Source: a virus. From it: a stretch of DNA of 26,980 nucleotides. Each line of letters starts with the position of its first letter. Position 1 is the stretch's first letter. Of the stretch, positions 7,674 to 24,244 are shown piece after piece. Below the pieces are notes generated by a model, which searched no databases, was not told the DNA's origin, and saw only the letters and a program-made list of their open reading frames with translations. The stretch is from positions 1 to 26,980 of IMG/VR virus record IMGVR_UViG_3300030118_000001, one strand, 5' to 3'. A program made the position numbers and the translations under genes.

Positions 7674-8243
7674 TTATCCTAAAGATGTAATGATTAGTTG
7701 GGGTTTTCTTATTTGACCGCTGGAATCAGCAGAACCATCCCAATTTCTAAATGTATGAAATTCAGCTTCATAACTAGTGCTATAAGACCGTCCTTGTATT
7801 TTAAGAGTTTTGGCACTTGTCCAAGTGGCTTGTCTACCAGTGGCTGTATCTGCACTACCACCGATTGGTATTAAAAAGGTATGACGATACTCATCATTTT
7901 TAGCGCCATAAGCTTGAATAGATTGTCGCTGACCCGTCACTTCATCGCTATCAATAAATGACTTGAAGTGGGTAATTGTATCTGTGTCCGTAAAATCATG
8001 AGAAAAAATAAACTCATATACAACCATAGTTGTGCCGCTTGGTGGAGTATAAGATATAGATGACCCTGTAATATCTGTGAATGTATTAGTCATTACTTGT
8101 TGAGCCGTTACATTCGTTGATGTGTATGTGGCACTACCAACAGTGTAATCATTGCCATCACAAAGCATGACAAGCTTTTCTTTAACAATACCGCCAAGAC
8201 TCCCACCACCTATGAATGCCGCTAGTTCTGCTGCTTTACTCAT
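7674..8243 (-). CDS. Hypothetical beta-rich fibre-region protein
   Basis: This 189-aa protein is the last of the array. The N-terminal helix 'MSKAAELAAFIGGGSLGGIV' is followed by a beta-rich body: 'TNTFTDITGSSISYTPPSGT', 'TMVVYEFIFSHDFTDTDTI', 'YRHTFLIPIGGSADTATGR', then 'TSAKTLKIQGRSYSTSYEAE' and 'FHTFRNWDGS'. The pattern 'f.di.g..isytP..gt..V.Yef.f' is found in phage proteins near tail fibres, including jelly-roll-like receptor-binding candidates. No catalytic residues are apparent. It lacks the HGDLA terminus although it is coupled to the preceding family member. Confidence 0.65.
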   Translation of the reverse strand: MSKAAELAAFIGGGSLGGIVKEKLVMLCDGNDYTVGSATYTSTNVTAQQVMTNTFTDITGSSISYTPPSGTTMVVYEFIFSHDFTDTDTITHFKSFIDSDEVTGQRQSIQAYGAKNDEYRHTFLIPIGGSADTATGRQATWTSAKTLKIQGRSYSTSYEAEFHTFRNWDGSADSSGQIRKPQLIITSLG

Positions 8244-8617
8244 GCTAGGTCTCCGTGAAAATTAACAGAAACATCTGATGCATCCACTGCACTTCCATTT
8301 CCATAAATTCTTATGGTAACTGTGCTTGTAGCGTAAGTTAATGCTCTAAAAGCACCACGGTTACTTGATGTCATGTTACTTGAGCCAGCACAAGAATAAG
8401 ACACAGAGGACATGTTATTAGTCAGATTTGGATTATAATTTCCGGTGCCAAAATCTGTGACACTGCTATGATTGAAGCTATCATTTAAGTAGTCACTAGA
8501 TGCAGTACCATCAAAATGCGCCCACGCCTTCGCACTACCCTCTGCAACAGTAGACAAGGCCACGCTGTTATTACCGCTGGCATCCTTTAGGGTGTTAACT
8601 CTAAGTTCACTTGCCAT
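8240..8617 (-). CDS. Array family member 6 (block 2, third position), HGDLA C-terminus
   Basis: This is a 125-aa member. The start is at ATG 8617 ('MASELRVNTLKDASGNN'), which overlaps the preceding TAA and has the embedded ribosome site; the frame extends 11 codons upstream only in another register of the previous gene. Motifs: 'STVAEGSAKAWAHFDGTASS', 'NDSFNHSSVTDFGTGNYNPN', 'LTNNMSSVSYSCAGSSNMTS', then HGDLA. It pairs with the gene at 11589-11960, third of block 1. It ends ATGA into the following non-family gene. Confidence 0.72.
   Translation of the reverse strand: MASELRVNTLKDASGNNSVALSTVAEGSAKAWAHFDGTASSDYLNDSFNHSSVTDFGTGNYNPNLTNNMSSVSYSCAGSSNMTSSNRGAFRALTYATSTVTIRIYGNGSAVDASDVSVNFHGDLA
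8249..8254 (-). promoter_or_regulatory. Ribosome site embedded in HGDLA codons, junction 6
   Basis: GGAGAC encodes Gly-Asp and lies 5 nt before ATG 8243, with ATGA overlap; Leu is CTA. The downstream gene belongs to a different family, so the terminal peptide serves whichever gene follows. Confidence 0.65.
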
Positions 8618-9045
8618 TATGCTAAGTCTCCGTGTCCAATTCCGTAACACTGGGCTAACTCAATAGCAGATGGACCAGAGCCACCGCCGTTGCCGACAGT
8701 ACAAACACCTAGCAAGCTAGAAGAAGTGCTTTCAGTAGAAAATCCTGAAGTGTAATTTGTACCCGACGGTCCTCCGCCCCCTTTTGTTGTGCCAGCAATA
8801 CGAATAAAAAATCCATCATCAAAATTGTTAGTGTTGTTTAATGCGTAATCTCCAGTGCCGTTATCTGTTATAGAAGCAAGGTTGAGACTGTTTTTAATTG
8901 CATTACTGTCAGTGGGGTCAAAGTTAGCCCACATTTTTGCTAATCCTTGCTCCAGAGACTGTGTGACACTAGCACCAACGGTAACAGTGACGGTTTTAGC
9001 GGTTGTGTTGCCTCTTAGGTCATCTACTTTAAGAATACTAGCCAT
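8617..9045 (-). CDS. Array family member 5 (block 2, second position), HGDLA C-terminus
   Basis: This is a 142-aa member with 'MASILKVDDLRGNTTAK', 'VTVGASVTQSLEQGLAKMWA', 'KNSLNLASITDNGTGDYALN' and 'NTNNFDDGFF', a Gly/Ser-rich variable part with GGGG and 'VGNGGGSGPS', and the terminus HGDLA. It is the counterpart of the gene at 11960-12349. The glycine-rich insert suggests flexible exposed loops. It starts in the previous stop and ends TAATG, so it is translationally coupled on both sides. Likely virion-associated; no function known. Confidence 0.72.
   Translation of the reverse strand: MASILKVDDLRGNTTAKTVTVTVGASVTQSLEQGLAKMWANFDPTDSNAIKNSLNLASITDNGTGDYALNNTNNFDDGFFIRIAGTTKGGGGPSGTNYTSGFSTESTSSSLLGVCTVGNGGGSGPSAIELAQCYGIGHGDLA
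8626..8631 (-). promoter_or_regulatory. Ribosome site embedded in HGDLA codons, junction 5
   Basis: GGAGAC encodes Gly-Asp and precedes ATG 8617 by 8 nt; stop and start overlap as TAATG. Confidence 0.65.
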
Positions 9046-9440
9046 TATACAAGGTCTCCATGTACTGCAACAGAGTTAGCTGTTGAATCGCCAAGACTGC
9101 CACTATCAGAATAATTTGCCAATGGTATTGAGGAGCTTGTTAACGCATCAGAATAAGAACTACTTGTGGCTAAATCTATCCCAAGCATCCTGCTTCTATT
9201 AACAGAGGTTGTTACAGCATAGGTTGAACCATCAGTAGCAGTTATATTATTAGTGAAGGTTACTGAAGCTTTTCCTGTAGAAGTATCCGTAAAAGATGAA
9301 AAATTAAATGAACCACGAAATACGTTAGCTGTATTTTGGTCATAAAGACAGTATGCTTTAGAAGCACTCTGTTTAGTCAGCGCAACAGGACCAGTGCCAG
9401 CCTTATCTGCAATAGTATCTACATTCAATACACTGGTCAT
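9045..9440 (-). CDS. Array family member 4 (block 2, first position), HGDLV C-terminus
   Basis: This is a 131-aa, more diverged member. The start is set at ATG 9440 ('MTSVLNVDTIADKAGTG'), overlapping the preceding TGA, with GGAG upstream. It keeps 'SASKAYCLYDQNTANVFRGS', 'FNFSSFTDTSTGKASVTFTN' and ends HGDLV. The middle ('RSRMLGIDLATSSSYSDALT') is not shared with others. It occupies the same place as the gene at 12346-12783 in the other block, though similarity to that gene is lower than for the other two pairs. No motif suggests an enzyme. Confidence 0.7.
   Translation of the reverse strand: MTSVLNVDTIADKAGTGPVALTKQSASKAYCLYDQNTANVFRGSFNFSSFTDTSTGKASVTFTNNITATDGSTYAVTTSVNRSRMLGIDLATSSSYSDALTSSSIPLANYSDSGSLGDSTANSVAVHGDLV
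9054..9059 (-). promoter_or_regulatory. Ribosome site embedded in HGDLV codons, junction 4
   Basis: GGAGAC encodes Gly-Asp of the terminal HGDLV, 8 nt before ATG 9045; Leu is CTT and the last residue Val, yet GGAGAC is unchanged. Confidence 0.65.
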
Positions 9441-9895
9441 ACGATACTCCAATAACCGTTAACAGTAACGGTGGCGTTCTGTGTAATGGGGCCAGCCGAC
9501 ATACCATTCTCATCGCTGTCAATCGTGATGTCAGCAGAAATAGTCTGCCCATTCAGACGGATGATGCTGTTGTTACCCTTGAATGGATAGCGTGTGTCAC
9601 TCTCTGTTTTAGTGTAACTGCTTGCTACAGCAAAGGTGTCATACACCACCATTTCAACAATGTCGTTCAGGCTGGCGGCTGTAACTAACACAACGCTTGT
9701 GCCTGTTGTAGCAGCATAGTCAGTACCCGGCTTGAGAAGCACACCGTTTTGATACACATCCATGTACAGGCTGTCTGTATAGCTCAGTGTCTTTGCATCA
9801 CCATCACTGCCACTGAATGTCGTTTGACTAGCTGTAGCCTGATATACAAATCGGTTGCGAACACCAAACTCTGGGGATTTTCCTATGTATGGCAT
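9437..9895 (-). CDS. Fibre-tip-like protein, head gene of array block 2
   Basis: This is a 152-aa protein starting 'MPYIGKSPEFGVRNRFVYQA' at ATG 9895; the longer frame adds six residues that overlap the upstream gene without need. The central beta module 'DSLYMDVYQNGVLLKPGTDY', then 'GTSVVLVTAASLNDIVEMVVYDTF', is the fibre-associated module also in the gene at 12780-13232. The C-terminus 'SAGPITQNATVTVNGYWSIV' is a widespread ending in marine phage fibre proteins. The end reads TGG AGT ATC GTATGA, giving a GGAG ribosome site for the next gene. The N-terminal motif may dock the protein on the tail. Confidence 0.72.
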   Translation of the reverse strand: MPYIGKSPEFGVRNRFVYQATASQTTFSGSDGDAKTLSYTDSLYMDVYQNGVLLKPGTDYAATTGTSVVLVTAASLNDIVEMVVYDTFAVASSYTKTESDTRYPFKGNNSIIRLNGQTISADITIDSDENGMSAGPITQNATVTVNGYWSIV

Positions 9896-10218
9896 TATGG
9901 TTTCTCCGGCCACTTAACATTGTCTAATGATGTTGCAGTTTTTGTTATATCTCGTAAGTCTTGTCTATACTTTTTCTGCGCATCAGTCATTGTTAAATCG
10001 CTAAGTCCCCACCAGTCGGTTTGATATAACAATGAATTTCGTTCTTCACGCAATGCAAACAACAAATCTTCTGCACTTTTAGTCGGGTTCACAAACGCAC
10101 CATCCTTATTTTTTACTTGACCACAAACAACAGTATCAGCCACTTCAACAAAACCGTCAGCGGCATCAGGTTGCTTTTGGATAACTACATTATCACTATT
10201 TAATAATACCCAAGCCAT
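9895..10218 (-). CDS. Tail-fibre assembly chaperone-like protein B
   Basis: This 107-aa protein has a small beta N-terminus ('MAWVLLNSDNVVIQKQPDAA') and the helical segment 'FALREERNSLLYQTDWWGLS', 'DLTMTDAQKKYRQDLRDIT', then 'LDNVKWPEKP'. The signature 'LR.ERN.LL..TDWW...D..MT....YRQ.LRDI' is a strong match to phage tail fibre assembly/chaperone-type proteins. It should act transiently in fibre folding. The last codons CCG GAG AAA CCA TAATG give GGAGAAA as ribosome site for the head gene of block 2, again overlapping the stop. Confidence in the family is high, in the client unknown. Confidence 0.75.
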   Translation of the reverse strand: MAWVLLNSDNVVIQKQPDAADGFVEVADTVVCGQVKNKDGAFVNPTKSAEDLLFALREERNSLLYQTDWWGLSDLTMTDAQKKYRQDLRDITKTATSLDNVKWPEKP

Positions 10219-10221
10219 GCC

Positions 10222-10719
10222 TTATCCAATCTTCATTATGTGAACAGTTGTGAATGTTTCTGGGTCTGAATTTGCCGCGAGACCTAAACCACCACTGGAA
10301 TATGCTGCAGAAACTTTCATCCGTATCTCATAAGTATTACTGGCTGAAATAACCACCCTAGCCCTACCCGTAGATAACCCAACAGTATAATTTGCTCCTG
10401 CAGTGGAGTGGCCGCTTGTTCCTGTTTCAACATTCGCGCCTGCTGTCACATCATAAAGCAAAGTGGCTGCTGCATTTGACCTAAAATGAGGACACTCCCA
10501 ATCAATAATATAAGTTCCTGCAATAAGTGTAAATTGATTGGATGAAATTGTTACAATATTATCAGGGTCAAAAACCTCTGTATTTAAATCTCGTGTTGTA
10601 AATGATGTAACTGATGTGCCACCAGCAGTGCCACTTGATTTTTGGTCAGAGACAACAGCAAAAGAAATTGGGCCTGCACCCGCGCCAAGACCGTCTGATA
10701 ATATCCTAGTTAGTGCCAT
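10222..10719 (-). CDS. Possible jelly-roll (C1q/TNF-like) fibre-tip protein
   Basis: This is a 165-aa, beta-rich protein. The segment 'QFTLIAGTYIIDWECPHFRS', then 'AAATLLYDVTAG', 'NYTVGLSTGRARVVISASNT', 'YEIRMKVSAAYSS' and 'TTVHIMKIG' follows the strand order and the 'f.l.aGtY.i....p' signature of C1q/TNF-like trimeric jelly-roll domains used as fibre tips and receptor binders. The N-terminal 50 residues are Gly/Ser/Thr-rich. The assignment is by pattern only. It sits between two chaperone-like genes, suggesting that it is a client. The start ATG 10719 has a weak ribosome site. Confidence 0.58.
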   Translation of the reverse strand: MALTRILSDGLGAGAGPISFAVVSDQKSSGTAGGTSVTSFTTRDLNTEVFDPDNIVTISSNQFTLIAGTYIIDWECPHFRSNAAATLLYDVTAGANVETGTSGHSTAGANYTVGLSTGRARVVISASNTYEIRMKVSAAYSSGGLGLAANSDPETFTTVHIMKIG

Positions 10720-10729
10720 AACTTATCGC

Positions 10730-11104
10730 CTATACGTAAGGGCTGTCACCCAATAGAGATGTATCCCAAGCTGCCTTGAGTTTAGCAATTGTGTCTGCAT
10801 CTGTAATTGCAGAAGCAGCAGGTGCATCACGCAGTGCTTTCTTCTTATTTACAGAAGCAGTCTTTGCATCTGCATCGTCAGCCTCTAGTGCTTTCATATA
10901 CACTACGTCCTCTGCTTCTAGCAGTGGCGCACGAACTTCACGGATTTTACCCTTGAATATTTCTTTGGCTTTTGTCATGTCCTCAGATATGACTTTGCCA
11001 TCTAATGACCATGCATTGCGAAAGTGACGGTCAGAAGGAACGGTAGCTGATGCAGCATCAATCTGATTCCCGTCCTTGTCTACGATGTATGTTTTTGGTG
11101 CCAT
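10730..11104 (-). CDS. Tail-fibre assembly chaperone-like protein A
   Basis: This is a 124-aa protein. The first third is a small beta part ('KTYIVDKDGNQIDAASATVP', then 'RHFRNAWSLDGKVI'). The rest is helical: 'DMTKAKEIFKGKIREVRAPL' then 'LEAEDVVYMKALEADDADA', 'KKALRDAP', 'KLKAAW'. The arrangement 'K.R..R.PLL...D...A...D......K.ALRD' is that of phage proteins often annotated as tail fibre assembly or tail assembly chaperones. Such proteins help fibres fold and trimerise and are not usually in the mature particle. It lies among fibre-like genes, as expected. The gene at 9895-10218 has the same helical pattern. Confidence 0.6.
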   Translation of the reverse strand: MAPKTYIVDKDGNQIDAASATVPSDRHFRNAWSLDGKVISEDMTKAKEIFKGKIREVRAPLLEAEDVVYMKALEADDADAKTASVNKKKALRDAPAASAITDADTIAKLKAAWDTSLLGDSPYV

Positions 11105-11115
11105 TAGTTTTCTCC

Positions 11116-11589
11116 TTATGCAGCCAATTCAGTGACGCTAAGTTCTTCAGTAATCTTCCAAGCATTGCGCCACTCACGTGTACCCGGAAGCTGTTCTTTG
11201 CGGCATATAACTATCTTAGGTTTGTTGCCCTCATTCCAATTGCGCCATACATGCTGTGGGCAATCTTTCATAATTAAGTATTCTATTGCCTGTTCTTCTG
11301 TCATAGCTTCTACAGGCTTTGTGTTGTGCAGCAAATGACCACGAGTGTGCTTCTTAAAGTCAGGTTGTGCTTCGTCTTTGGCTAGTTCCCAATAGACTTG
11401 CACTGGTGGTAAGATACCACCCTGCAATGCACAAGCCATCCAGTTAGGGTCAGGCACAAGCACTTTTGCACATTCGTCTATGTTGTCTTCGTATACTACG
11501 CGATATTCAGACTGATAGGCTTCTAGGTTTTCCTTTGCCCAGCAAAGCCTATCCCATAAGTGTGTGCCTTGAAATTCTGGTGTCTGCAT
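11116..11589 (-). CDS. Hypothetical protein between the two array blocks
   Basis: This is a 157-aa soluble alpha/beta protein. The start is placed at ATG 11589 ('MQTPEFQGTHLWDRLCWAKE'), overlapping the previous stop. Visible features are many Trp and aromatic residues, 'KVLVPDPNWMACALQGGILP', 'MTEEQAIEYLIMKDCPQHVW' and a C-terminal 'REWRNAWKITEEL'. It is unlike the low-complexity Ser/Thr-rich neighbours in composition: it has more Trp, Cys, Glu and Lys. It does not look like a fibre; a cytoplasmic assembly helper or regulator is more likely. I recall similar proteins beside tail genes of marine phages but know no function. It is followed by a strong AAGGAG site for the next gene. Confidence 0.65.
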   Translation of the reverse strand: MQTPEFQGTHLWDRLCWAKENLEAYQSEYRVVYEDNIDECAKVLVPDPNWMACALQGGILPPVQVYWELAKDEAQPDFKKHTRGHLLHNTKPVEAMTEEQAIEYLIMKDCPQHVWRNWNEGNKPKIVICRKEQLPGTREWRNAWKITEELSVTELAA

Positions 11590-11960
11590 TATGCTAATTC
11601 TCCATGACAACTAAAACTTGTATCATTTTCATCTGAGAAACTACCTGTATCAACAGTGGCTATTCTCACAGTGCCTGTTGCTTGTCCTGCGGCTCTAGCG
11701 TTACTCGTCTGACTTATGTTGTAGTCTGCGTCAGCCGCCGCCGCAAAGTGTGCATTAACCATGTTACTGGAAAATTGAGGATTAAAATCACCTGTGCCGT
11801 TATCTGTCAAACTGCTACAATTGAGACTGTCGTCCAAAGTCGCATCACTACCCTCAAAATGACCCCAAGCCTTCGCACTACCCTCAACAACGAACTTTGT
11901 GTCTACAGAGCCGGAGGTGCTGTGTTCTAGGGTATCTGCTTTGATTTTTCCTAGTGCCAT
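11589..11960 (-). CDS. Array family member 3 (block 1, third position), HGELA C-terminus
   Basis: This is a 123-aa family member with 'MALGKIKADTLEHSTSG', then 'FVVEGSAKAWGHFEGSDATL', 'DDSLNCSSLTDNGTGDFNPQ' and HGELA. It matches the third gene of the other block (8240-8617), which has 'VAEGSAKAWAHFDG' and 'GTGNYNP'. The segment between the core and the terminus ('HFAAAADADYNISQTSNARA') is not shared and may be the exposed variable face. The end reads GGA GAA TTA GCA TAATG, so it also carries the next ribosome site. The function is not known; it has the size and composition of a small beta-structured fibre protein. Confidence 0.72.
   Translation of the reverse strand: MALGKIKADTLEHSTSGSVDTKFVVEGSAKAWGHFEGSDATLDDSLNCSSLTDNGTGDFNPQFSSNMVNAHFAAAADADYNISQTSNARAAGQATGTVRIATVDTGSFSDENDTSFSCHGELA
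11598..11603 (-). promoter_or_regulatory. Ribosome site embedded in HGELA codons, junction 3
   Basis: GGAGAA encodes Gly-Glu of the terminal HGELA and precedes ATG 11589 by 8 nt, with the stop and start overlapping as TAATG. Unlike junctions 1 and 2 the next gene is not a family member. Confidence 0.62.
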
Positions 11961-12349
11961 TATGCGAGGTCTCCAAAACCTAACTCATTCACATTGTCAT
12001 AGTCATAAGCGGCGGCGGTATCTATTCTTTTTGTAATAATATGAACTTTATTTGTGGATGGATTATCTTCAATCATTACATTTCCAACAGTAAATGTTTG
12101 ACCTGCGTTAAAATAAGCAACAGATGAAAAATTATTTGTGTAATTTATTTCCGTTTTTGCTGTAGCTGTATCTGTTAAAGAAGCTACGTTTAAACTGTCT
12201 ACAATAGCCACCGTGCCACTTTGGTCATAGTGACAAAGCATTTTAGCAATGCCATCTTGTAATTTCTGTGTAGCACTAGCACCAACGGTCACGGTAAGGT
12301 CATTAGCAGTACTTACGCCAGTGAGTTTGTTTGTTTTTACCTCACTCAT
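11960..12349 (-). CDS. Array family member 2 (block 1, second position), FGDLA C-terminus
   Basis: This is a 129-aa family member. The N-terminus 'MSEVKTNKLTGVSTANDLTV' leads to 'VTVGASATQKLQDGIAKML', then 'VDSLNVASLTDTATAKTEIN' and 'YTNNFSSVAYF', a variable strand-rich segment, and FGDLA. Its closest relative in the window is the gene at 8617-9045, which has 'VTVGASVTQSLEQGLAKMWA' and 'NSLNLASITDNGTGDYALNN'. Both stand second in their block. It starts within the stop of the previous gene and ends TAATG into the next. No enzymatic motif. Likely a virion surface protein, by context. Confidence 0.72.
   Translation of the reverse strand: MSEVKTNKLTGVSTANDLTVTVGASATQKLQDGIAKMLCHYDQSGTVAIVDSLNVASLTDTATAKTEINYTNNFSSVAYFNAGQTFTVGNVMIEDNPSTNKVHIITKRIDTAAAYDYDNVNELGFGDLA
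11969..11974 (-). promoter_or_regulatory. Ribosome site embedded in FGDLA codons, junction 2
   Basis: GGAGAC encodes Gly-Asp of the terminal FGDLA and lies 8 nt before ATG 11960, which overlaps the TAA stop. The Leu codon is CTC here, so the GGAGA bases are kept while the next codon varies. Confidence 0.65.
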
Positions 12350-12783
12350 GCTAAGTCTCCATGTAAAACAACACCAGCATAGTTAACATCTTCCATTGAT
12401 GTATTAGCATAGGCAGTAACATATCTAGCAGCAGTAGTGGTTGCGGGTGTTGAAAGTTCAGCTTGACTAATACATTCTTGACTGTTTGATGCTAGTCCAC
12501 ACATTCCTGACCTACAATACGAGGCATTGCTCATAGCCGATGATATTGTGACTGTGTAATCTCCTGTTCCATTATCTGTAAGACTTGAGTGATTTAAACT
12601 ATCTCGCACAGCAACAGTGCTTGTTCCATTCCAGTTAACCCAAGATTTACCCAGACTTTGTACAATATTTTGTGTAACGCTAGTGCCGCCATCTGATTCA
12701 TATACAGAGGTATTTTTAACTCTAATGTCTACACCAGCAGTGCCGCCAGTTTTTCTAATTGTATCTGCAAGCAATGTACTCAT
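12346..12783 (-). CDS. Array family member 1 (block 1, first position), HGDLA C-terminus
   Basis: This is a 145-aa protein of the repeated family. Order of motifs: N-terminal 'MSTLLADTIRKTGG', then 'GGTSVTQNIVQSLGKSWVNW', 'RDSLNHSSLTDNGTGDYT', a variable Cys- and Ser-containing segment (about 85-125), and HGDLA. The core 'K.W..F.GT...A.RDS.N.SS.TDNGTGDY' is a sequence I associate with small marine phage fibre-like proteins. The variable part before the fixed C-terminus contains three Cys, which is unusual here. The terminal codons GGA GAC carry the ribosome site of the next gene, and stop and start overlap as ATGA. Function is unknown; a trimeric fibre tip or adhesin is the working idea. Confidence 0.72.
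   Translation of the reverse strand: MSTLLADTIRKTGGTAGVDIRVKNTSVYESDGGTSVTQNIVQSLGKSWVNWNGTSTVAVRDSLNHSSLTDNGTGDYTVTISSAMSNASYCRSGMCGLASNSQECISQAELSTPATTTAARYVTAYANTSMEDVNYAGVVLHGDLA
12355..12360 (-). promoter_or_regulatory. Ribosome site embedded in HGDLA codons, junction 1
   Basis: GGAGAC is both the Gly-Asp codons at the end of the gene at 12346-12783 and the Shine-Dalgarno sequence 5 nt before ATG 12349. Confidence 0.65.
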
Positions 12784-13232
12784 AGCGTCACCAATGTCCC
12801 ACCGCTTTCAACGGTTAGTGTAACACCAGAAGCCACAGTAAACGGACCAGTTACGTTGGCGTTCTCTGTGGCTAGGATAGTGGTGTCTACAGTCAGGCTT
12901 TGATTGTTCGTGCGGAAGATACCGCCAGACTTAAAGTTGCCTCTGTTTTCTGAGGCAGGTGAGATAGACCCAGCAGACGTACCCATGTACATGACAAAGA
13001 TATTGTTGCCTGAGTTACTTGATGGTGCTTCATCAAATGTAAGTGCAGTTCCATTAGGGACAGTATATGAACCATCAGGCTCTTGTACCACACCATCTAC
13101 GGAAACGATTATATCTTCTGCACGAGCCGTTTGATTTAGAGTAAAGACAGTTGTTGAACCATCTCCACTAAACTCTTGGCGTGTTGGCCTAGACTGAAAG
13201 CTGGCGTTAGGTAGGTTGCCTAAAAAGGGCAT
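12780..13232 (-). CDS. Fibre-tip-like protein, head gene of array block 1
   Basis: This 150-aa protein starts 'MPFLGNLPNASFQSRPTRQE'. Then comes a domain of the type 'FSGDGSTTVFTLNQ...IIVSVDGVVQEPDGSYTVPNGTALTFDEAP', a beta module repeatedly found in phage fibre and fibre-attached proteins. The C-terminus 'NVTGPFTVASGVTLTVESGG' is a frequent ending of marine phage fibre proteins. It resembles the gene at 9437-9895 in start motif, central module and C-terminal form. Each of the two is followed by three members of another family, so the pair mark two copies of one block. It overlaps the neighbours on both sides by 1-4 nt. Role: probable structural or receptor-contact protein, inferred. Confidence 0.72.
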   Translation of the reverse strand: MPFLGNLPNASFQSRPTRQEFSGDGSTTVFTLNQTARAEDIIVSVDGVVQEPDGSYTVPNGTALTFDEAPSSNSGNNIFVMYMGTSAGSISPASENRGNFKSGGIFRTNNQSLTVDTTILATENANVTGPFTVASGVTLTVESGGTLVTL

Positions 13233-22017: not shown

Positions 22018-22043
22018 GTGAGGTTGTTTTATAAGCCCCTCAC
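22018..22043. repeat. Inverted repeat after the Hint-domain gene
   Basis: GTGAGG (22018-22023) and CCTCAC (22038-22043) are perfect arms around a 14-nt A/T-rich loop and overlap the stop codon of the Hint-domain gene. The gap to the scaffold (22039-21952) also has a C-rich run and a small GTTGG/CCAAC stem near the scaffold ribosome site. No U-run follows. A 3'-end or leader structure is possible. Confidence 0.35.
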
Positions 22044-24244
22044 GCAGCTTGTTGTCTTACTTCTCTGTATCTACCGTGGACAGTATATGTGCTGCCCTCA
22101 GTGTATACATCGAAGCTATCACCATCAATTACGATGGATACCGTTGGTGTCATGCGGTTAATATAATTTAGAGACGTAACCTTAACACCGTTAATAGTGT
22201 CTCCTACGACTAATTGTTCTGGACGTGTCCAGTCAGCTTTACCAAGACCACCAGACTTGGCCCATACAGGATGGTCATTAGTTATTTCTAGTTCATTATT
22301 AATTACGAAGTAACCACTACGCATATGTTTATGCAGAACTTCTTTAACAACAGAGCCATCAATAATGTCACCGACTTTGATGTTTGTTACAAAGTCAATT
22401 ACGCCGTTGAGTTTGACTTTCATGTTTTCAGTCAAACACTCATCGCCTGAACCAAATCCAGTACTTGCTCCCGATGAATCAACACCAACACCGCCCGGAC
22501 TAGCATCATCACCACCTCTTTCTGGGCTAGGTGAAGAGGTTTCACGGCCATCGCGTGCAGCAGCATCAGCAGCAGCCCTTGCCGCCGCTACATCAGCATC
22601 TGTAATATCCCTGCCAACCAGTCCTGCATCTCTAGCTACATTACCTTTTGCTCTAGCAGCTTGGGCAGCAAGAGCATCTGCTCTAGCCCGTGCAGTTTTA
22701 GCAGCTTCAAGTTCTGCATTTAACTGCGCACGTGCTTGTGCTGTCATCACATTTGTTTTTTGCCCGGTAACAGGGTCGGTGCTTGTTACAGGATTTCCTT
22801 TACCATCTCGTACTACGCCCCTGCCTGTTGCTGTTTCATTTGCATCAGCTTCATATGCATCCGCTAATGCTCTATAACCTGCTATGGCCCTAGAAACAGT
22901 TGCTGGATTACTTAAATCTGCTGCATTATATCCAACATCTTCTATAGCAGTAGTAGCAGCAGCCTTTAGTGCTTCTGCATATGCTGGACTATTCATTTCT
23001 TTTGCTAAAGCATCTCTATAATCTAAGCCTTCTTTTTGAGCATCCAGTGCTGCATTTATCATATTTCCATAATATGTAGCTTGCGCATTTGTTGTAATTT
23101 GTCCGGGTCTTGCCATACCCAGAGAAGTTAAAGCTGCCACTTTTCCTGCTTGTCCAGCTTCAGCCATATCCTTCATATCAGCATCTAAAAGACCAAGATT
23201 TTTACCAATCGCAGTTCCTACACCCGTAACACCAAGCAAGGCACCTTGATACATTGCTAGATTTTTAGTAGCATCACGCATAGTCGGATTGCTAAAACCA
23301 AATTCAGCATTACCACCAAAAGCATTTGCATTATTAGCAATATCCGCTGTTAAAAATCCACCTGTTTTTGATAAAGCAGCAGGGGTAGAGGTAAGACGAG
23401 TAACTGCTCCCGTTACACGTGTTGTATCTAGTCCATCTCTATCCCCACCATCATCACGAACCTGTGTTTGACCAAGGGTAGGTGTTACGGTTGTCTGCTC
23501 TTCTTCAGGTTTAGGCTGGTCTGCCATAGGCTTATATCCCTCTGGTATAGGATAAATAGGCTGCCCATTTTTAAATGGTATCTGTAGTGTTTGTCCTGCA
23601 TCATTTTGATATGTTCTTAATTCATCATACTGCCCAGCTTGACTACCAACTGTTTCTGCAAAAGTCGGTAAGTTAGTTGTTTGCAAAGCTGTTGTAAACT
23701 GAGGACCACTAAATTGTACAGGTTGAAAATATGGAGTAGGTATACCTGCACTAGTGGGAGTAAATCCTGTCGGCTGCTGTTGATACTGTTGAAAGCCTGT
23801 AATACCAGTACCCGGCAATGTGTATACACCCGTTTGTGGATTAACTTGATTAGGGAATGATGGGGGTATAAAACCACCTGTCTGTAAGTTTAACTCACCT
23901 TGTCCATCGTCTTCTACTTCAAGGTCATATTCGTCAAAAGGTAAATCATCTGGCATAGTGGCCTCTTCACTATTACCCATCTGACCCATAGCTTCCATTT
24001 CAGCTAAACCTTGTTTTGCTTCTTGACGCATACGCATTAAATTTTCAAGGCCAACATAACGCACTACATCTGCAGGAACAACAAATTCTCCCTCACTCAA
24101 CTGTGCAGGTATATCATCGCGTACTTCTTCTTGCGTTGAACCCGGTGGTACTTCATTACCAGACACGGGGTCTGTTGTGCCACCCTCATCCATGAGACCA
24201 CCATCATCAAAGAGTTCCATTTGTTTTGCCATACTTTTAGCCAT
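22040..24244 (-). CDS. Large structural-region protein with C-terminal Hint (hedgehog/intein) domain
   Basis: Starting at ATG 24244 this is a 734-aa protein; AAGGG lies 9 nt upstream, so this ATG is preferred to 24253. The N-terminal 60 residues hold a Gly/Asp-rich 'MELFDDGGLMDEGGTTDPVSG' and an 'AQLSEGEFVVPADVVRYVG' segment seen in many marine phage virion-region proteins of unknown role. A Pro/Gln/Thr-rich stretch and an Ala-rich helical part (about 430-570) follow, then a Gly/Ser/Asp linker. From Cys603 the last 132 residues match the Hint fold: block A 'CLTENMKV...KVGD', block B TNDH (Thr655, His658) and block F-like 'YTVHG' (His723). The intein-terminal Asn is replaced by Gly724 and there is no Cys, Ser or Thr as +1 extein, so full protein splicing looks impossible. 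N-terminal thioester cleavage remains possible. It sits between portal and scaffold. Confidence 0.8.
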   Translation of the reverse strand: MAKSMAKQMELFDDGGLMDEGGTTDPVSGNEVPPGSTQEEVRDDIPAQLSEGEFVVPADVVRYVGLENLMRMRQEAKQGLAEMEAMGQMGNSEEATMPDDLPFDEYDLEVEDDGQGELNLQTGGFIPPSFPNQVNPQTGVYTLPGTGITGFQQYQQQPTGFTPTSAGIPTPYFQPVQFSGPQFTTALQTTNLPTFAETVGSQAGQYDELRTYQNDAGQTLQIPFKNGQPIYPIPEGYKPMADQPKPEEEQTTVTPTLGQTQVRDDGGDRDGLDTTRVTGAVTRLTSTPAALSKTGGFLTADIANNANAFGGNAEFGFSNPTMRDATKNLAMYQGALLGVTGVGTAIGKNLGLLDADMKDMAEAGQAGKVAALTSLGMARPGQITTNAQATYYGNMINAALDAQKEGLDYRDALAKEMNSPAYAEALKAAATTAIEDVGYNAADLSNPATVSRAIAGYRALADAYEADANETATGRGVVRDGKGNPVTSTDPVTGQKTNVMTAQARAQLNAELEAAKTARARADALAAQAARAKGNVARDAGLVGRDITDADVAAARAAADAAARDGRETSSPSPERGGDDASPGGVGVDSSGASTGFGSGDECLTENMKVKLNGVIDFVTNIKVGDIIDGSVVKEVLHKHMRSGYFVINNELEITNDHPVWAKSGGLGKADWTRPEQLVVGDTINGVKVTSLNYINRMTPTVSIVIDGDSFDVYTEGSTYTVHGRYREVRQQAA

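Follow-up and report, generated by a model that had tools for sequence, protein, structure and literature searches.

We analysed the complete virus record IMGVR_UViG_3300030118_000001 (26,980 nucleotides (nt), hereafter the window), with attention to six short genes of its minus strand whose common C-terminal peptide, typically Gly-Asp-Leu-Ala (GDLA), lies over the putative Shine-Dalgarno (SD) sequence of the gene that follows. The record contains structural genes only, those of the minus strand being terminase, portal, coat-like protein and tail genes. In the types and order of its genes, and in several gene ends, the region from 7.7 to 13.6 kb is similar to the tail-fibre array of Puniceispirillum phage HMO-2011. 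The six genes are paralogues, 30-42% identical pairwise. All six matched phrog_11355 (tail fibre) in a profile search, with E-values from 3e-7 to 3e-16; a Pfam search gave no family above cut-off for any of them. They fill six ordered slots, grouped as triads (A-B-C and D-E-F), every slot having a conserved N-terminus of its own, and the genes were assigned from the phrog_11355 match and the slot order:

12346..12783, minus strand: slot A gene, N-terminus MSTLLADTIRKTGG, end LHGDLA, ATGA overlap with the next gene
11960..12349, minus strand: slot B gene, N-terminus MSEVKTNKLTG, end FGDLA, TAATG overlap
11589..11960, minus strand: slot C gene, N-terminus MALGKIKADTLEHS, end HGELA, TAATG overlap into the xTPEFQGTHL gene
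9045..9440, minus strand: slot D gene, N-terminus MTSVLNVDTIADKAG, end HGDLV, TAATG overlap; its start is likely the ATG at 9440 rather than the mechanically listed TTG at 9452
8617..9045, minus strand: slot E gene, N-terminus MASILKVDDLRG, end HGDLA, TAATG overlap
8240..8617, minus strand: slot F gene, N-terminus MASELRVNTLKDASGNN, end HGDLA, ATGA overlap into the MSKAAELA gene

At all six junctions the start codon overlaps the preceding stop codon, and the SD sequence lies within the upstream open reading frame (ORF) at a working distance:

12346..12360, minus strand: junction 1, GGAGACTTAGCATGA, Gly-Asp-Leu-Ala-stop together with the SD sequence GGAG and the slot B start, CAT GGA GAC TTA GCA TGA
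11958..11974, minus strand: junction 2, GGAGACCTCGCATAATG, TTT GGA GAC CTC GCA TAATG
11587..11603, minus strand: junction 3, GGAGAATTAGCATAATG, serving a gene of another family (MQTPEFQGTHL), CAT GGA GAA TTA GCA TAATG
9043..9059, minus strand: junction 4, GGAGACCTTGTATAATG, CAT GGA GAC CTT GTA TAATG
8615..8631, minus strand: junction 5, GGAGACTTAGCATAATG, CAC GGA GAC TTA GCA TAATG
8240..8254, minus strand: junction 6, GGAGACCTAGCATGA, serving a gene of another family (MSKAAELA), CAC GGA GAC CTA GCA TGA

A base-by-base check agrees with an earlier note on this DNA as to the peptide ends, the codons, the stop/start overlaps and the service of junctions 3 and 6 to other families. The spacing of 5-8 nt that it gave between GGAGA and ATG had to be corrected: 6 nt lie between GGAGA and the A of the start codon at the two ATGA junctions, and 9 nt at the four TAATG ones; from the end of GGAG to ATG the distances are 7 and 10 nt. 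We consider it highly probable that the GDLA end is dual-coded and would serve at once as the ribosome site of the next gene, as a selected peptide and as the edge of an exchange module in an adhesin array.

Homologous loci were gathered by scanning viral contigs with several family members as queries (the six-protein window alignment was too divergent for pattern search, and single-protein queries were used), which gave 779 nonredundant gene ends in a first round and 1,024 in an enlarged set. Peptides from all along the protein served as search patterns, so that the ends had undergone no prior selection for GDLA or any codon. GDLA formed the final four residues of 744/779 family ends, and an ATG overlapped the stop codon in 761/779 (TAATG in 461, ATGA in 300). 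The comparison of the terminal Gly codon with other Gly codons of the family, proposed in the earlier note, gave a clear difference: GGA occupied 752/773 terminal positions against 24% of internal ones, and 646/665 terminal positions after clustering at 80% protein identity. At the conserved internal Gly of the DNGTGD motif, in the same genes, GGT was found 83 times, GGA 80, GGC 34 and GGG 13. Synonymous bias amounted to 1.89 bits at the terminal Gly codon compared to 0.07-0.08 bits at codons -10 to -8. The claim that each gene carries the start signal for whatever follows held well, terminal GGA being kept in 294/298 cases in which the next gene belongs to another family.

The departures from the consensus were equally informative. 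Variants with Ser (AGT or AGC) in place of Asp carried GGG as Gly codon in 6/6 cases, so that GGGAG retains GGAG one base later, and variants with Ala or Gly in place of Asp retained GGA and GGAG. This Gly/Ser compensation is, from sequence comparison, the strongest single argument for an RNA need at the Gly codon. At one locus (L231) the peptide is gone through an earlier stop, yet TGGAGACCTAATATG persists untranslated before the next gene. A few variants (GGG GAC, GNLA, GVLA) are devoid of GGAG, indicating that the constraint is strong and not absolute. On this comparative evidence, a role of the terminal GGA-GA as a ribosome site appears well supported. Judged by their codons, other-family genes that lead into a slot gene meet the same GGAG need in other frames. 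Three neighbours of the slot genes belong to such families:

12780..13232, minus strand: collar-like gene preceding slot A, end GTLVTL, ATGA overlap
9895..10218, minus strand: tail-fibre assembly-like gene (phrog_8716/4912), end WPEKP, TAATG overlap with the next gene
9437..9895, minus strand: MPYIGKSP-type tail gene between the triads, end GYWSIV, ATGA overlap with slot D

The GYWSIV end holds GGAG in a different frame (TGG AGT), for slot D, the WPEKP end in the third frame (CCG GAG AAA), for the next gene, and another other-family end, ALEAE, again in a different frame (TTG GAG GCT); the LVTL ends may use GGTGA (TTG GTG ACG) as an alternative SD sequence. Overall, one of the 4-mers GGAG, GAGG or AGGA was present upstream of the start in 850/869 coupled family junctions, 393/669 other coupled junctions and 7% of random 12-nt stretches. 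As a separate observation, Microcystis and Nostoc phages (L346, 2923-4051; L348, 2617-3755) display the same junction design though their genes are annotated as amylase or hypothetical; one of the pair has HGDLA with GGAGACCTCGCATGA, the other HGSLA with GGGAGC plus GGGGAGA in a shifted frame.

The slots differ by their N-termini. In the first triad the N-terminal classes are MSTLKADTIQSTGG (A), MSEILVNKLTG (B) and MALGKIKADTLEHS with its relatives (C), followed by the xTPEFQGTHL gene; in the second they are MTSVLNVDTIADKAG (D), MASILKVDTITG (E) and MASELRVNTLKDASGNN (F), followed by the MSKAAELA gene. Within a slot, identity is 69-87% over the first 25 residues, 11-12% over the last 40 (GDLA excluded) and 95-100% over GDLA itself. 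Variable DNA at least 80% identical was found in 174 gene pairs, 77 of them between different slots, with cross-slot identities of 80-99%. The corresponding modules of the window, with putative boundaries for slots A, B, D, E and F, are:

12361..12651, minus strand: slot A exchange module, predicted eight-strand beta domain (structure model)
11975..12247, minus strand: slot B exchange module, AKML to before GGA
11604..11876, minus strand: slot C exchange module, AKAW codons to just before GGA, 96.8% identical DNA to the slot F module of another locus (L030)
9060..9362, minus strand: slot D exchange module, SKAY to before GGA
8632..8940, minus strand: slot E exchange module, AKMW to before GGA
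8255..8533, minus strand: slot F exchange module, AKAW to before GGA

Among the 68 cross-slot pairs whose edges could be placed, the left identity edge lay no more than about 12 nt from the AK(A)W codons in 46, and the right edge was the last base before the TAA/TGA divergence in 37; over all loci, alignment ends cluster at the GGAGAC...GCAT junction. The overlap type had changed between ATGA and TAATG in 46/77 cross-slot pairs, which implies that the stop codon travels with the next gene, the common GCAT permitting either. On these alignments the GDLA/ribosome-site junction is the right edge of the exchange module and supports the idea, put forward in the earlier note, of cassettes that ease shuffling: natural swaps do break at the junction, but the moving unit is the C-terminal domain with its GDLA/ribosome-site end and not the whole gene. 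A second, smaller breakpoint cluster was seen over all loci 75-150 nt past the family stops and fits the left edge of the following gene's module. In an AlphaFold2 model of the slot A window protein (76-sequence alignment, mean predicted local distance difference test score (pLDDT) 81), eight strands span residues 47-141, coinciding with the exchange module, and GDLA (142-145) comes directly after the last strand. A fold search of BFVD with the model matched many phage tail-fibre proteins, and one of the PDB gave weak matches to tailspikes (that of phiAB6 with E 0.015 and TMq 0.47) and to pyocin fibres, in keeping with a predicted tail-tip role; a sequence search of solved structures returned one non-significant chain only.

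The clustering of breakpoints at the junction raises the question of whether it is chiefly a recombination site, a homology arm or recombinase target, to which the ribosome site would be incidental or secondary. The left edge points the same way, as its AKAW codons are fixed (GCGAAGGCKTGG; AAG 83% vs 43% internally) with no visible RNA role, and so does the retention of GCA in 86% of TAATG junctions, although their overlap can do without it. A DNA target would however be expected neither to hold GGAG out of register with its own consensus, as the Asp-to-Ser variants do, nor to leave the first and third bases of the Leu codon variable; moreover, non-family genes at like junctions keep GGAG in other frames and in a different sequence, and the annotation of HMO-2011 has a tyrosine integrase and nothing named as a shuffling recombinase. 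We therefore judge this explanation unlikely, and favour a junction in which ribosome site, peptide and exchange edge coincide. At the left seam, GCG AAG GCK TGG (e.g. window 11865-11876) is strongly favoured over its synonyms, and no ribosome site is needed there.

Relatives in which the next gene is not coupled bear on a second alternative, namely that GDLA is needed for fold or assembly and that GGA-GAC, as inherited codon usage, plays no part at the RNA level. Family or related ends without an overlapping ATG numbered 107, of which 89 lack a G(D/E)L end and have IFR, VFGN, IFGD etc. instead. GDLA persists in the other 18, FG(D/N/S) ends occur in uncoupled relatives, and the residues Asp and Leu are themselves conserved, as a purely protein constraint would have it. 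The Gly codon contradicts that explanation. GGA makes up 97% of terminal and 24% of internal codons, the DNGTGD Gly is free, and GGG appears exactly where Asp gives way to Ser. At the matching position of uncoupled homologues Gly was encoded by GGG in 13, GGA in 11, GGC in 4 and GGT in 3 cases; the contrast in GGA use between coupled (881/895) and uncoupled (11/31) ends gives a Fisher p of 1e-24 that is uncorrected for relatedness and not to be taken literally. Distant FGD/HGD ends used GGA in 6/6 cases when the next ATG was 2-3 nt past the stop and GGC in 3/3 when it was 31-32 nt away, and in one contig (L449) a near-ATG GGA end and a far-ATG GGC end occur in consecutive genes. We reject the protein-only explanation, to which we attach very little probability. 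The expectation that uncoupled members would lose the GGAGA bases was borne out in these distant relatives, but close family members whose follower has its own site after the stop mostly still have GGA. As relatives without coupling also have FG(D/N/S) ends, Gly-Asp probably stood at the C-terminus before it was put to use as a ribosome site.

Could the peptide conversely be a by-product of the ribosome site and the overlap? The Gly and Ala codons do suit the needs of GGAG and ATG. The Leu position, however, is kept as an amino acid while bases 1 and 3 of its codon vary: CTC, TTA, CTA, CTT and TTG are all present, and a pyrimidine third base is found in 343/564 CTN codons and 0/295 TTN codons, so that Phe is excluded and Leu retained. 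Asp outnumbers Glu by 754 to 11, though GAA or GAG would give GGAGA equally, and Ala is retained in TAATG junctions though the last base of its codon is not needed. The Leu pattern thus contradicts the RNA-only explanation, which we reject as hardly probable. By the same sequence data, the comparisons show that GDLA is also selected as a protein. The suggestion that the peptide is kept as much for its RNA role as for the protein is sustained for the Gly codon, which is RNA-constrained, but retention of the peptide mainly for RNA is not, given the retained Leu, the excess of Asp over Glu and the 18 uncoupled GDLA ends.

Codon choice at the neighbouring residues has features of its own. The terminal Leu codon (e.g. 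window 11966-11968) is CTC in about 35% of cases vs 4% internally, with CTG nearly absent, which the SD sequence does not explain, and the codon chosen differs between slots, CTA preceding slot B and CTC preceding slot E. A preference for GAC over GAT was considered as a second RNA signal and set aside, being largely accounted for by a general avoidance of GATC: internal Asp codons followed by C were GAC in 398 cases and GAT in 41. In the window and related loci GATC occurred 2,167 times against 7,207 expected, and GGCC was also avoided (2,012 against 4,194); the GATC deficit suggests restriction or methylation pressure at this site.

Recent duplication or gene conversion that left the ends alike with no function implied, which the paralogy and DNA exchange of these genes might suggest, is the least probable explanation and was rejected on account of variable domains only 11-12% identical alongside GDLA at 95-100%, of the free variation of residue -5 and of the Leu codon beside a fixed GGA, and of the constancy of the end, which holds in 669 clusters (80% identity) as well as in a Microcystis cyanophage.

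We propose to regard this region as the array of adhesin genes of an HMO-2011-type marine podovirus, made of six small tail-fibre genes in two ordered triads, in which each slot-specific N-terminus would dock at its own tail position and each hypervariable C-terminal beta-domain would be a receptor-binding head. The GGA-GA codons, by placing GGAG 7 or 10 nt before the overlapping ATG, would provide the next gene's ribosome site and couple the translation of neighbours, and GDLA would cap the last strand of the fold. The beta-domain moves between slots and between phages by recombination, presumably through short homologies, the exchanged piece usually running from the AKAW codons to GGAGAC...GCAT. 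As GCAT can continue as GCA-TGA (ATGA) or as GCA-TAATG, one domain can fit before either type of next gene while keeping stop, start and ribosome site. Codon constraint and its compensation, protein-level constraint, slot order and cross-slot exchange with its edges are all demonstrated by the alignments.

Several observations weigh against this proposal. Docking and receptor binding are suggested by fold and variability only; GGAG is a four-base site; coupling and GDLA are largely confined to one clade, so that the counts are not independent events. In addition, six uncoupled close relatives (L114, L410, L405, L456, L128, L147) keep GGA though the follower has its own post-stop site (TAGGAGG or similar); they are few and mutually related, and the module plausibly arrived there recently. 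More tentatively still, the array might be an evolved combinatorial diversification system, its seams GCGAAGGCKTGG (domain start) and GGAGACYTNGCAT (domain end) kept partly to let heads exchange among six slots with frame, stop, start and ribosome site intact, and the triads might form two three-part, possibly heterotrimeric, tips with independently shuffled heads; we find this extension doubtful. The two three-paralogue sets stand in fixed order (8240-9440 and 11589-12783), with a chaperone-like gene and further tail genes between them, an arrangement that raises the possibility of two heterotrimeric tips. Elsewhere in the window (22040-22500), the C-terminus of a 737-residue virion-region gene (DECLTENMKVKLNG...ITNDHPVWAKSGG...) bears a possible resemblance to a Hint (hedgehog/intein-type) domain.

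Tail-fibre mosaicism in phages P2, lambda and T4, invertible segments and shufflons all combine a constant part with exchangeable C-terminal parts; such systems were reportedly treated by Haggard-Ljungquist in 1992 and by Sandmeier in 1992 and 1994, as cited in PMC3945230. The present array differs from invertible segments and shufflons in that all six copies are expressed-type genes on one strand. Neither inverted silent copies nor an invertase appear in the window ORF list or the HMO-2011 annotation, which were not searched with profiles for them, and that annotation names no reverse transcriptase of the kind found with diversity-generating retroelements, for which no dedicated profile search was made. 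Variation in the array consists of whole-domain replacement; with its constant N-terminal part, exchanged C-terminal domain and breakpoints at domain edges, it has the organisation of modular receptor-binding proteins. The same slot N-termini (MSTLKADTIQSTGG, MALGKIKADTLEHS, MTSVLNVDSIADKAG, MASELRVNTLKDA) and GDLA junctions are shared by HMO-2011 (GU557055), whose genes 28-42 match the slot types and junctions in annotation and ends. Papers on HMO-2011-type phages, as far as searched, treat tail-fibre variation in general terms only (PMC9038755, PMC6918029), no paper with both 'HMO-2011' and 'Shine-Dalgarno' was found in the literature searched, and searches for such an array in ribosome-site terms, with subscription papers outside their scope, returned nothing describing one.

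In closely spaced or overlapping co-directional genes, the SD sequence is known to sit in the last codons of the upstream gene, with stop choice or spacing adapting to it (Palleja et al. 2009, PMC2784483). The junctions described here resemble those gene pairs in their SD sequence embedded in the upstream 3' coding end, and differ from that genome-wide set in that one peptide and one codon solution recur in hundreds of divergent paralogues and mark the edge of an exchange module. In coliphage receptor-binding proteins, a constant anchor carries an exchanged receptor-binding domain flanked by conserved DNA motifs that were proposed as recombination hotspots (PMC10408124). The array shares with them the constant anchor, the exchanged domain and conserved DNA motifs on both sides, but their right-hand motif, 20 nt long, is noncoding, downstream of the gene and a predicted terminator, whereas here the right motif is coding and would be the next gene's ribosome site, and domains move among six parallel slots of a single type of array. 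The pattern reaches beyond the window, across a large marine phage group, and would offer a grammar for host-recognition genes (slot address, exchangeable head, dual-coded seam) in which a swapped domain would bring a working start signal for whatever follows. It would account for an invariant tail peptide common to hypervariable tail genes, and its seams should allow adhesin heads to be identified and followed in metagenomic data. Embedded SD sequences and exchange-flanking motifs are each known; what is new, as far as the searched literature shows, is their union in one dual-coded seam over six slots, which would make it a clear example from nature in which a single short sequence acts as protein, ribosome site and exchange boundary.

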